Assembly: GCA_021795715.1 (NCBI GenBank)
Contig: JAJYPD010000003.1
Coordinates: forward strand, 1 to 64,000
Length of the DNA stretch: 64,000 nucleotides
From: Pseudomonadota bacterium
GTDB taxonomy: Bacteria; Pseudomonadota; Gammaproteobacteria; Acidiferrobacterales; Acidiferrobacteraceae
Direction: 5' to 3'
How positions within the stretch are numbered: the stretch's first letter is position 1; every line of letters starts with the position of its first letter. The notes beneath the pieces were generated by a model. That model saw nothing but the letters and a program-made list of their open reading frames with translations. It searched no databases and was not told the origin of the DNA. Both the position numbers and the translations under genes were made by a program. Shown one piece after another: positions 37,968-42,679 of this stretch.

Positions 37968-39143
37968 CTACAGACGGCGATGCGTGCTCCAGAGGACGTA
38001 GGCTGTGTGCATGTCGTGCCGCAAAGCCCGCTCGATCAACGCCCGCTCCCGCGCGGTCATCCGGTAGCGGGCCAGATAGGCACGGAAAAAGCGCAGGTAG
38101 GCCGCGTCCGGATAGACGACGATGCGGGCCGCAACGCCCGTGGCATGGGCCGCTTGTGGCATGACGTAGACGAGCCGGCGGGTGGCGCCCGGCGGCAAGC
38201 GCGTGTCGAAATACTCGCGCGTAAGATCGAGATTGATGCGCCGGGCGATCACACTTTGCCGGCGGGTCCCCGCGCACACCCTGTCGCCGCAGAGCTCCTC
38301 GATGCTCATCACGACCTTGGGTGTCGTATAGGTCGGAAAATCGTGCCCCACGCCGGTGTTGGTCAAAGACAGCCGCGCGCAAACGCGCCTTTGGCCGCAA
38401 ATCCGTATGCGCCAGCGCACTTGCACGGCGCGCCGCACAAATCCCGGGTCATGAATGCCGGCAAAGCGATGGCGGCCGCCGGGCATGTGGCAACTCTGGC
38501 AGGTGACCCCCTCCAGCCGGTAACGGCTGTCGTACCATTCGTTGTAGGTGTTCTCGAGGAGCACGCCATCAAGCCGCGCCCCATCGCGGTGAAACTGGTG
38601 GCAGACGGCGCAGAAACGGCTGCGCGTGAAGGCGGACTCGGGCGTGAATCCATTGTGAATCATCCGGCCCGCGGCGAGGAAGGCGGCCAGGGGTGGCCCA
38701 AACCGCTGATAGTGGCGCACATGGCAGTCGGCACAGCTGACACCGTATCGCGCCACGGCGTGCAGGCGGCCGCCGCGGATGAAGGATCGCACCTCGCGCC
38801 ATGAGCCCCGGCCCGGCGCATGACAAGACAGGCAACCCTCCGCAAACCCCCGGGCGCGCACGCCTGCGACCGCCAGCTGGCCGATCACACCCGGACCCAT
38901 GGCTTGTGCGTGGCGGCTCGTCTTCCACGCATCGTACTGGGCGGCATGACACAAAGCGCAGGCGCGCGGAGACAAGCGGGTCTCGAAGGCGGGCCAATGC
39001 GGAATCCGCGCGCCGCCCAGGGGCACGGGGGTATGCCAATAACGCGCCAGAAAGGCCGTCGTCGGGAAGCTGCGTGCCGCCGGCGCCAGCACCAGCCCGC
39101 ACACAGCCGCGACCGTCATCAGGACTTGCCGCGCGCGGCGCAT
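37968..39143 (-). CDS. Periplasmic pentaheme c-type cytochrome
   Basis: The 391-residue product has an N-terminal signal (residues about 1-25) and five CxxCH heme sites: CALCH 62-66, CLSCH 104-108, CADCH 137-141, CAVCH 178-182 and CQSCH 215-219. The motif NTYNEWYDS then CQSCHMPGG resembles multiheme cytochromes of the c554/NrfA-like superfamily. The C-terminal 170 residues lack hemes and look beta-rich (LTNTGVGHDFPTYTTPKVVMSI). A role in periplasmic electron transfer is inferred; the donor and acceptor are unknown. The NACG-repeat peptide gene lies 57 bp upstream on the same strand. Confidence 0.88.
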   Translation of the reverse strand: MRRARQVLMTVAAVCGLVLAPAARSFPTTAFLARYWHTPVPLGGARIPHWPAFETRLSPRACALCHAAQYDAWKTSRHAQAMGPGVIGQLAVAGVRARGFAEGCLSCHAPGRGSWREVRSFIRGGRLHAVARYGVSCADCHVRHYQRFGPPLAAFLAAGRMIHNGFTPESAFTRSRFCAVCHQFHRDGARLDGVLLENTYNEWYDSRYRLEGVTCQSCHMPGGRHRFAGIHDPGFVRRAVQVRWRIRICGQRRVCARLSLTNTGVGHDFPTYTTPKVVMSIEELCGDRVCAGTRRQSVIARRINLDLTREYFDTRLPPGATRRLVYVMPQAAHATGVAARIVVYPDAAYLRFFRAYLARYRMTARERALIERALRHDMHTAYVLWSTHRRL

Positions 39144-39200
39144 CGAAACGAGGGATCCGGTGACGCCCCGACCCCACCGGGGGCGCGGGGCATCGCCCCG

Positions 39201-39410
39201 TTACGACATGTTCGAACCGCAGGCGTTCTTCGGCATCTTCTTCGACGATCCGCCGGCATTGTGCGGCGCCTTCTTGTTGGCACCGCAGGCATTGTGCATG
39301 GCCTGTCCCGACGACCCGCAGGCATTCTTCATGTCTGCCTGGGCCGTGGTCAGCGCCACCGTCGCCACGAGACCCAAAACCGCATACAGCGCGTGCACGG
39401 ACTTCTGCAT
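39201..39410 (-). CDS. Secreted NACG-repeat peptide, function unknown
   Basis: The 69-residue product has a clear signal peptide (about 1-25, cleavage after TAQA) and a short mature part made of four 11-residue units with NACG at 29-32, 40-43 and 62-65 and NAGG at 51-54. Each mature copy thus has one Cys, lost by one base change (TGC to GGC) in the third. Lys, Ser, Met and His fill the rest. It may bind metal or a heme partner, or be modified, but no modifying enzyme is nearby. A GGAGG site precedes the ATG. Probably co-transcribed with the cytochrome. Confidence 0.78.
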   Translation of the reverse strand: MQKSVHALYAVLGLVATVALTTAQADMKNACGSSGQAMHNACGANKKAPHNAGGSSKKMPKNACGSNMS

Positions 39411-39635
39411 CCCGACCTCCTTATGTTGTCATTGTCATCATGATCCAAGCCGTCTTCGCCGCGCCCGCGGCCCACCGCCGACGGATACCGCGCAGCGGGG
39501 GCCACGCAACGAAGGCGGGCACCAACCGATCCGCGATCGCCACAGCTTGCATCCATTCTAAAGGTGCCGCCGGCCATTATCCAGTCGCAGGCCACCTGTA
39601 GACCCGCGTAGCGCCCATACGCCCGCGATCCGTTC

Positions 39636-42600
39636 TTATCCTTCGCCCAGGCGGCGATGAATCCGGTGCAGCAGCACGGGCAAAACAATCAAAACGAGCG
39701 GCAGTTGCGCCAGCAGCCCGGAGACGATGGCGATGGCCAGCGGCTGCTGCATCTGCGCGCCCTGTCCCCAGCCGAGCGCCAGCGGGAGGAGGGCCAGAAT
39801 GGCCGCCATCGTCGTCATCGCGATCGGCCGCAGCCGGTTCTTGCCTGCGCCGATGAGCCGCGCCGACACGTCGGTGCCCGCCAGATCATGGTATTCGGAA
39901 TAATAAAAAATACCGACCTCGGTGACGATACCGACGATCATCGTCATACCCATCATCGACGAGATATTGAGCTCCGTACGGGTCACCCACAGGCCGATGA
40001 AGACCGCAGCAAAGACAGCAGCGTCGTCAGCAGGAGAGCGCCTGCCACCGTGAAGCGCTCATACAGGAAAAGCAGGAGCAAAAACACGAGGCCGACGGCG
40101 GTGGCAAACACCGCCATCAGGCCGGCAAAGGCGATCTGCTGCTGCATGTACAGGCCGCCCAGACTGAAGTACATGCCCGGTGGCAGCAAACCCGGCGTCT
40201 TTAGCAGCGTCTTGACGTCGTGCATGACACCGCCGAGGCTCCGCCCGCTGATGTGCGCCGTGACGGCCGCCATTTGTTTGAGATTGTCGCGGGTGATTTC
40301 CGGCTGCCCATGCAAAATGCGCACGCGCGCCACCTCCCGCAACGGAAAGAGCCGCCCGTTGGCGGCCTCCATCGGCAGACTGCGAATGGCGCCAAGCGAT
40401 GCGCGCATCGAATGCGGCACCCAGACCCGCACGCCGATCATGCGGATCCCGCGCTGCACGCGGGTGGCGATCGCGCCGTTTAGGGCGTCATACAACTGGG
40501 TGGTGACGCTCTGCGGACTGACACCTTCGAGTGCCGCCTTGGCCCGGTCGACCCGGATGTCGACGGCATTCCCCGAATACACGATGCCGTTGCGCACCGC
40601 CAGGACCCCGGGGATCGCCGCGAGATGGCGCGCCACCCGCATGGCAGTCTGCCGCAGAAGCGGCCCGTTCCCGGAAAACAGCTTGATCTCGATCGGACGC
40701 GGACTGCCCGTCAGGTCTCCGATCAGGTCCTTCATGGGCTGGTCCATACTGATCTCCAGCCCCGGCACACCCGCCTTCACCTCCCGGCGCACGCGTGCCA
40801 TCACCTGCCATACCGAGGGACGCGGGAAGGGTTTGAGGAGCACATAGAAGTCACCCTCGTTGGTGCCGGTGATACCGCCGCCCAACTGCAGGCCGGTACG
40901 CAAGGAGAAGGTCTGGACGGCCTTGTCTTGCATCAGAATGTGCTCGACCTGATCAAGCAGCCGCGCCGTCTCGCCAAGCGAAGTGCCGGGTTTGGCCTTG
41001 TAGTTCAGCACAAAGCCGCCTTCATCCATCGCCGGCATGAAGCCCGAACCGGTCATGGCAAAGCCGAACCATCCCGCGCCAAGCAGCACGACCAGTCCGG
41101 CGCCAAGCCACTGCGGCTGCCGGAACAGCCGTTGCATCAGACGCTCATAGGCGCGCTGCAGACGCACCAGCACCGGGCCCGCCCGCTCCACATCGGCACC
41201 ACCGGTGCCGAGCAGATGGTCGGCCAAGATCGGCACGACAAGCCACGTCACGAAAAACGAGATCACGAGGCTTGCCGCCATGGTGAGGGAAAGCGCGCGG
41301 AAAAACGCCCCGGTCACGCCCTGCAGGAAGGCAAGGGGCATGAAAATCACCACCGTCGACGCCGACGACCCCAGCAACGGCCGTGTGAATTCGCGCACGG
41401 CCCGCGCCACGCTCGTATGGCGCTCACCCGGCGGACTTTCCATCTGCCGGCGCACGATGTGCTCGATCATGACGATCGTGTCGTCGATGATGAGACCCAC
41501 CGCCGCCGCCATGCCGCCCAACGTCATGATGTTGAACGTCATGTGCGACACGTAGAGGACCACCATGGTGGCGGCCAGCACGGTCGGCACCGTCACCAGT
41601 GCGATCAGCATGATACGGACGTTGCGCAGAAACAAAAGCAGCACGGCAGCCGCGAGCAGCGCGCCGATCAACACCGCATCGCGCACGGTGGCCGCCGCCG
41701 CGCGGATGAGCGTTGCCTGGTCGTACCAGCGGCGGATCTGGATACCTGGGGGCAGCTGCCGGCGAAAGGTGCGCAGGGCGCGCCCCACCGCTTGGGTGAT
41801 GGCCAGCGTGTTGCCCCCCGGCTGCTGATAGATCTGGATGCTGACGGCGGGCTGGCCGCCGCCCACCACCTGGGTCCACTGCGGTTTCAGCGCCCGGCGC
41901 ACGGACGCCACTTCGCCAAGCCGCACGATGCCGTGGCCATCGGAACGCAGCACGGTCCTTCTTATGTCTTTCAGGCGGCGCAGGCGTGTGTCGGAGATGA
42001 GCAGGTAGAACTGGTAATGGCGTGTCAGGTGACCGACGCTTTTCAGGACATTGCTTTCCTTGAGCGAGCGCACAACGTCGGCCACCGTCAACCCATACTG
42101 CGCCAGGCGCACGGGATTGACGGTGACACGGTATTCCTCGGTCCGCCCGCCGATCACGCCGACACGGGCCACGCCCGGTATGGCCGACAAGAGCGGGCGG
42201 AGCTGGTAGCGAGCGATGTTGCGCAACCGCGCCTGCGACACCCGGTCCGACGTGAGCGTATAGGCCAGCATGCGGAAAATCGTCGGCCGCATGCGCCGCA
42301 CATCGAGCTGCGTGTCGGCGGGCAGACGCGTGCCGAGATCGGCGAGCGCCGCCTGCACCTCGAGCGTGGCGATGGTCATGTTCTCGCCCCAGCGGAAATT
42401 CACATAAAAGTCCGCCCCGCCGCGGCTGGTCGTCGAGCGCACGCCGACCACCCCCGGAATGCCGCGCACCGCCTGTTCGATCGGATAGGTGACGGCGATC
42501 AGCATCCGCTTGGCCGGCCGGTCGCCGGCTTGCGCATAGATCTCCACCCGCGGGAAATCCACATGCGGGAAAAGCGCCACGGGCACCTTGAAGCTCGCGC

Positions 42601-42679
42601 CGATGCCACCGAGAACGAGCAGCAGCATCAAGAAAAGCAGAGAACGCCGGTGGCGCTGCAGCCACGGACCGGCGCTCAT
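39636..42679 (-). pseudogene. RND-family inner-membrane efflux transporter, frameshifted
   Basis: Full-length RND pump (about 1010 residues if joined) split into an 898-codon part (39983-42679) and a C-terminal part (39636-39986). The first part has the porter and funnel domains and the proton-relay pair in GLIIDDTIVMIE. It runs as LLTTLLSLLRSSSACG and stops, whereas deleting one frame step at about 40010-40016 restores AAVFIGLWVTRTELNISSMMGM, the expected RND sequence. One base is thus missing. It overlaps the adaptor gene by 4 bp. It may be a real pseudogene or a sequencing error. Confidence 0.88.

Follow-up and report, generated by a model that had tools for sequence, protein, structure and literature searches.

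A Cys-repeat peptide encoded upstream of a pentaheme cytochrome, a candidate thiol partner in an Ext-like setting

In Geobacter, the products of extHIJKL are a lipoprotein of the rhodanese kind, a porin-like protein of the outer membrane, a small protein in the periplasm and a pentaheme cytochrome, as set out in excerpts of PMC6148476 and PMC5877670; of the protein in the ExtJ position, the excerpt of PMC5877670 says no more than that it is small and of unknown function. The PHC family of pentaheme cytochromes, which includes the c552 of T. tepidum, is described in an excerpt of PMC11976967 as related to the archaeal nanowire cytochrome AvECN. In Acidiferrobacter, rus and pet iron-oxidation operons are described in the part of PMC10654088 that was available, and neither that part nor the available part of PMC5566968 mentions a peptide of the kind presented here.

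We analysed a 64,000-nucleotide stretch of DNA (the window) that encodes a short Cys-repeat peptide directly before a pentaheme cytochrome. Taken over the taxonomic family of the window, the gene set is like Geobacter extHIJKL in having an ExtKL-homologous pentaheme cytochrome, an ExtH-like rhodanese and a porin, and the peptide, small and predicted to be secreted, takes the place of ExtJ. It is unlike extHIJKL in that the genes form two divergent pairs or lie at two loci, that no scanned protein reaches an ExtH or ExtKL equivalog score, and that the selenocysteine TGA that splits K and L is not present, the cytochrome being a single 391-aa ORF with no in-frame TGA. The features of the locus are as follows.

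37968..39143, minus strand: periplasmic pentaheme cytochrome of the PHC kind, 391 aa, with a C-terminal beta domain (five CXXCH; 5ZE8 profile; beta domain taken from the confident part of a model)
39144..39200, minus strand: 57-bp intergenic stretch from peptide to cytochrome (folds no better than shuffles, z -0.53)
39201..39410, minus strand: Cys-repeat peptide gene, 69 aa, predicted secreted (ORF with homologues in 14/18 genomes of the family)
39204..39233, minus strand: repeat unit 4, PKNACGSNMS (its K-N-x-C-G-S does not vary within the family)
39234..39266, minus strand: repeat unit 3, PHNAGGSSKKM, the penultimate and Cys-less unit
39267..39299, minus strand: repeat unit 2, MHNACGANKKA (lag-11 self-match)
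39300..39332, minus strand: repeat unit 1, MKNACGSSGQA (lag-11 self-match)
39336..39410, minus strand: predicted signal peptide, residues 1-25, with A-Q-A end (sequence reading; A23, A25 and M27 invariant in alignment A1)
39416..39422, minus strand: Shine-Dalgarno AAGGAGG of the peptide gene (relatives are also preceded by an AAGGAG-like site)

The peptide gene and its repeat

The peptide gene has its stop at 39201 and the cytochrome its ATG at 39143, both on the minus strand, which confirms the 57-bp spacing to a same-strand pentaheme cytochrome given by an earlier, sequence-only reading of the window. After the A-Q-A of residues 23-25, four repeat units make up the whole mature chain of about 44 residues. 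NACG starts at residues 29, 40 and 62, and the variant NAGG starts at residue 51. The 11-residue periodicity in four units claimed by that reading holds: the mature chain has 17 lag-11 self-matches, against a maximum of 13 at any lag from 4 to 15 in 20000 shuffles, none of which reached 17. The repeat is beyond chance. The mature chain of the window has three Cys, six Lys/Arg and a single acidic residue and is free of W, F, I, L and V, and across the family the mature peptides have 0-2 W/F/I/L/V residues and a positive net charge.

Searches for the peptide covered 60 relatives plus 57 genomes of the order, and true relatives were found only in the window's own family (f1, 18 genomes), where 14 genomes carry 15 copies, G007 having two. 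The genome of the window gave further, weak matches on contigs C49 and C30, a match in G031 was rejected as a thiolase-like frame, and no relative was found among the viral contigs searched. For six copies of the same length, dN/dS was 0.04-0.30 in all 15 pairs; the ORF is a real gene under purifying selection, and these values rule out a spurious reading frame. An alignment of 14 peptide rows (A1; the G013 copy, found later, was left out) gives M27, N29-A30-C31 and the C-terminal K-N-x-C-G-S as family-wide invariants. The codons at the Cys position of units 1-4 are TGC, TGC, GGC and TGC, so that unit 3 is a single base away from Cys, as had been proposed for the loss in the third copy. We see, however, that the penultimate unit is Cys-less or deleted in 14/14 rows of A1, so this loss is not peculiar to the window copy but family-wide.

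No Pfam model matched any of the 14 peptides, and NCBIfam gave two weak one-member matches, to an HvfX-family model (1/14) and a CefA model (1/14), both with E about 0.01. No NCBIfam family named after ExtJ matched any of the 14, and a PDB search with the peptide gave no match at E≤10. Apart from the two weak matches, the earlier statement that no named family is known for the peptide thus stands. The motif of a c-type cytochrome, CXXCH, is absent from the window peptide and from all A1 rows. The peptide also lacks the clustered CXC or CXXC motifs of a metallothionein, its Cys residues being about 11 residues apart, and no metallothionein family in Pfam or NCBIfam matched the 14 peptides. A text search that covered part of the literature found no paper on peptides with NACG repeats or with the NPC repeats described below.

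Pairing with the cytochrome and the Ext-like setting

An orthologous pentaheme cytochrome lies directly downstream of the peptide, on the same strand, in 14 of the 15 copies, and so the expectation that homologues would be found near cytochromes in other genomes is borne out. Of the 18 genomes in the family, 16 have the cytochrome; G004 and G015 have neither cytochrome nor peptide, while G002 and G011 have a cytochrome with no detected peptide, the gene being cut at a contig end in both. The copy without a cytochrome is the second one of the single-contig genome G007 (537419-537625; L022 9420-9626). This solo copy lies near TusA-like and Blh-like sulfur-transferase/dioxygenase genes and near transposase-like ORFs.

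The G001 gene order, Icd-peptide-cytochrome-csp-ClpS-ClpA, is that of the window minus an RND operon, and the RND operon was therefore rejected as part of the peptide-cytochrome unit. The RND permease gene of the window (39636-42679, minus strand; ACR_tran, nearest to CusA/CzcA and multidrug types) has a frameshift near 40000: its 898-aa ORF ends prematurely and the rest of the C-terminal part is read in a different frame, as would result from a pseudogene or a sequencing error. Several loci of genus g2 have a terminator-like hairpin between peptide and cytochrome, so that the amounts of the two products may differ; in the intergenic stretch of the window no terminator-like signal stands out. 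In G001 the two genes are separated by a strong hairpin (z -4.36; L026 9600-9680) that lacks a clear T-run.

Eleven other aligned cytochromes are 58-74% identical to that of the window. In all 12 sequences the five CXXCH are invariant, as are six further His, and together these would allow bis-His ligation of all hemes. A family profile of the cytochrome matches the homologous penta-heme c552 of T. tepidum (PDB 5ZE8) with E 1.8e-11. As a single sequence, the window cytochrome gives weak matches to 5ZE8 and to the selenoprotein MccSep, on which a literature text search found nothing relevant. The NCBIfam ExtKL model NF040886 gives E 2.7e-8 and 32.8 bits against a curated cut-off of 250. Judged by these profile matches, the cytochrome is a member of the PHC pentaheme family and a relative of T. 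tepidum c552 and Geobacter ExtKL. Its AlphaFold model is poor (pLDDT 50.7, mostly <50 over residues 1-228), and the fold match of that model to 5ZE8 (TM 0.31) was for this reason given little weight.

A rhodanese with at least 78% identity is present in 12/14 peptide genomes and in 0/4 of the other genomes of the family, and a porin with at least 65% identity in 13/14 versus 0/4; these counts ignore kinship, and two of the four peptide-less genomes are less complete. Rhodanese and peptide are divergently oriented and no more than 3 kb apart in eight genomes, and in G000, G001, G003 and G006 rhodanese and porin are together on a different contig from the peptide, which is C36 in the genome of the window. 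The ExtH model NF040901 matches the rhodanese at locus L023 with E 8e-18 and that at L025 with E 1.4e-17, and the porin adjoining the L023 rhodanese matches PF13609. In sister families, the proteins directly upstream of the cytochrome match ExtH alone in 3/3 scanned loci. As all of these Ext matches are below the equivalog cut-off, they indicate a similar setting and not Ext membership. We consider it well supported that the peptide belongs with a PHC electron-transfer module, whose members (rhodanese, porin, small protein and pentaheme cytochrome) resemble those of Ext. This fits the suggestion of the sequence-only reading that the peptide is an electron-transfer accessory, now with a PHC/ExtKL relative as the cytochrome and with an ExtH-like rhodanese and a porin that co-occur.

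NPC-repeat proteins beside related cytochromes

In a phylum sample of 398 genomes, the cytochrome was found in 53 besides the genome of the window, and loci were fetched for 29 of these. An ORF with N[PA]C repeats lies within 1.6 kb upstream of the cytochrome in 23/29 loci and neither downstream (0/29) nor antisense (0/29), in fetched flanks of at most 1.5 kb, some of them shorter. A profile built from the NPC proteins (A3) scores in 44/53 cytochrome genomes; NPC protein and cytochrome are on one contig in 36, and in 35 of those 36 the gene for the NPC protein precedes the cytochrome on the same strand, at a distance of no more than 3 kb. Thirteen genomes have an NPC/SoxA-type match with no cytochrome, and in the sister families of the order the cytochrome has no Cys-repeat neighbour at all (0/10 loci).

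A heme domain of the SoxA/TsdA type forms the end of many NPC proteins or is enclosed by them. The four NPC-cytochromes scanned all match PF21342 (SoxA/TsdA; E 1.6e-12 to 5e-10), and their nearest PDB structure is SoxA 1H31, with an aligned conserved Cys that we take to be the SoxA heme ligand. NACG and NPC proteins hold an equivalent place upstream of the cytochrome. Profile comparison of the small peptides of both kinds found similarity in the signal peptide only (probability 10), so common descent is unproven. In the cytochrome tree, the repeat-bearing cytochromes fall into three separated groups, a pattern that suits either an ancestral linkage or separate recruitment.

Some NPC-repeat SoxA/TsdA-type proteins of other lineages lie beside DUF6969 genes, with Pfam matches in L140 and L143 and similar sequence in L144 and L145. 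Genes for DUF3179 and DUF547 also occur in L140, and for DUF3179 in L143, where the NPC proteins have no pentaheme cytochrome; these four loci possibly represent a separate system. In one genome of family f49, the genes for NPC peptide, NPC-cytochrome and pentaheme protein are preceded by those for an arsenite methyltransferase (ArsM) and an ArsS-type radical SAM protein (L149 9741-12195, minus strand), and similar methyltransferase ends flank NPC peptides in L097, L102 and L104.

Possible roles of the peptide

A thiol-carrier partner is, with moderate confidence, the most likely reading of the peptide. In its full form, which we advance tentatively, the peptide is a flexible, cationic multi-thiol partner of the PHC module, its thiols carrying sulfane sulfur or other species and its electrons going to the cytochrome. 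The short, secreted and disordered chain, with Cys on flexible arms, would act as the small-protein partner of the PHC-type cytochrome in an Ext-like module. Once exported, it would remain in solution, either within the periplasm or at the cell surface; the rhodanese would deliver sulfane sulfur, or another thiol-bound species, to the peptide thiols, and oxidation on the peptide would pass electrons to the pentaheme cytochrome. We infer this sulfane-sulfur or thiol chemistry from the rhodanese, from the SoxA/TsdA-type domain fused to NPC repeats and from the position of the G007 solo copy near TusA-like and Blh-like genes. Counted against it are the location of the rhodanese-porin pair in the window's own genome on contig C36, the sister-family cytochromes that have no peptide, and the NPC proteins found without a pentaheme cytochrome.

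SoxY has a swinging Cys arm, with a flexible Cys near a Gly-containing C-terminus. The peptide could act in a similar way without itself being SoxY. It is like the SoxY arm in being predicted to be exported and in having a flexible Cys near a Gly-containing C-terminus, and there are NPC proteins with a SoxA-type heme domain; it is unlike SoxY in having several Cys, no SoxY domain (PF13501 was found by Pfam in none of the 14 peptides) and a distribution uncorrelated with SoxY. SoxY occurs in 8/14 peptide genomes, and no f49 genome is among the 127 SoxY genomes of the sample. As SoxY does not track the peptide-cytochrome pair, a link to canonical Sox is not seen, and a role as a canonical Sox component was rejected.

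The metal-related neighbours (HMA, ArsM/ArsS and RND) would suit metals equally well, and the peptide could instead be a metal or metalloid thiolate buffer, in which flexible arms with Cys, Met and His capture periplasmic Cu(I), Hg(II) or As(III) and so shield or supply either the cytochrome or an efflux system. A convergent HMA-domain gene lies just past the cytochrome in seven loci of genus g2, the CusA/CzcA-like RND operon adjoins the pair in the window, and the arsenite methyltransferase and ArsS are near NPC genes in f49. Each of these neighbours is, however, lineage-specific: the RND operon is missing at the otherwise syntenic G001 locus, and no HMA gene is beside the pair in the window, L026, L028 or L029; none is seen in L031 and L024 either, two loci that break off shortly beyond the pair. 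With Cys so widely spaced, no CXXC or CXC and one unit always Cys-less, we judge such a buffer to be rather unlikely.

An aid to heme handling, as suggested earlier, or to cytochrome assembly, with the peptide keeping heme or thiols ready while the pentaheme protein matures, appears distinctly improbable. The conserved pairing and gene order, with the peptide first, would fit such a role, as would the hairpin of genus g2, which would give more peptide than cytochrome. Yet CXXCH is missing from the peptide, the sister families have the cytochrome but not the peptide, and the solo copy of G007 does not adjoin a cytochrome gene. A specific role in handling heme or metal, as first proposed, is not supported, since CXXCH and CXXC are both absent and the metal-related neighbours vary by lineage.

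Alternatively, the peptide might be a structural partner of a cytochrome polymer, cross-linking or coating its subunits by disulfides or axial ligation. This draws on the relation of the PHC family to AvECN and of the window cytochrome to 5ZE8, but there is no sign here of the cytochrome polymerising or leaving the periplasm and the model is of low confidence, which makes such a role very doubtful. HvfA, BufA and CefA are RiPPs made from short secreted peptides with regularly spaced Cys. The peptide shares these traits, but an MNIO-modified metallophore precursor of the HvfA/BufA type is highly improbable and was rejected, as the only family matches are the two weak single ones to HvfX-family and CefA models, and the MNIO gene (PF05114) is absent in 11/14 peptide genomes, including single-contig G007, and in G000 is on contig C8 and not beside the peptide.

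Returning to the thiol-carrier partner, its broadest extension is that NACG and NPC proteins form one wide, undescribed class of periplasmic multi-thiol carriers, loaded with sulfane sulfur or metalloids and giving electrons to PHC cytochromes, on a Sox-independent path that would span several classes of Proteobacteria, including lineages without SoxY. We regard this extension as unlikely.

Accounts of multiheme cytochrome modules usually centre on the cytochromes and the porins. If the Cys-repeat peptide is a regular PHC partner, it would provide an easily made molecule of about 44 residues for testing thiols in these electron routes, and Ext-like modules, SoxA/TsdA-type hemes and sulfurtransferases would be joined in one testable picture. 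In short, a conserved peptide partner, together with Cys-repeat proteins before distant PHC relatives, suggests that a bacterial electron-transfer system has a thiol component that has been overlooked.
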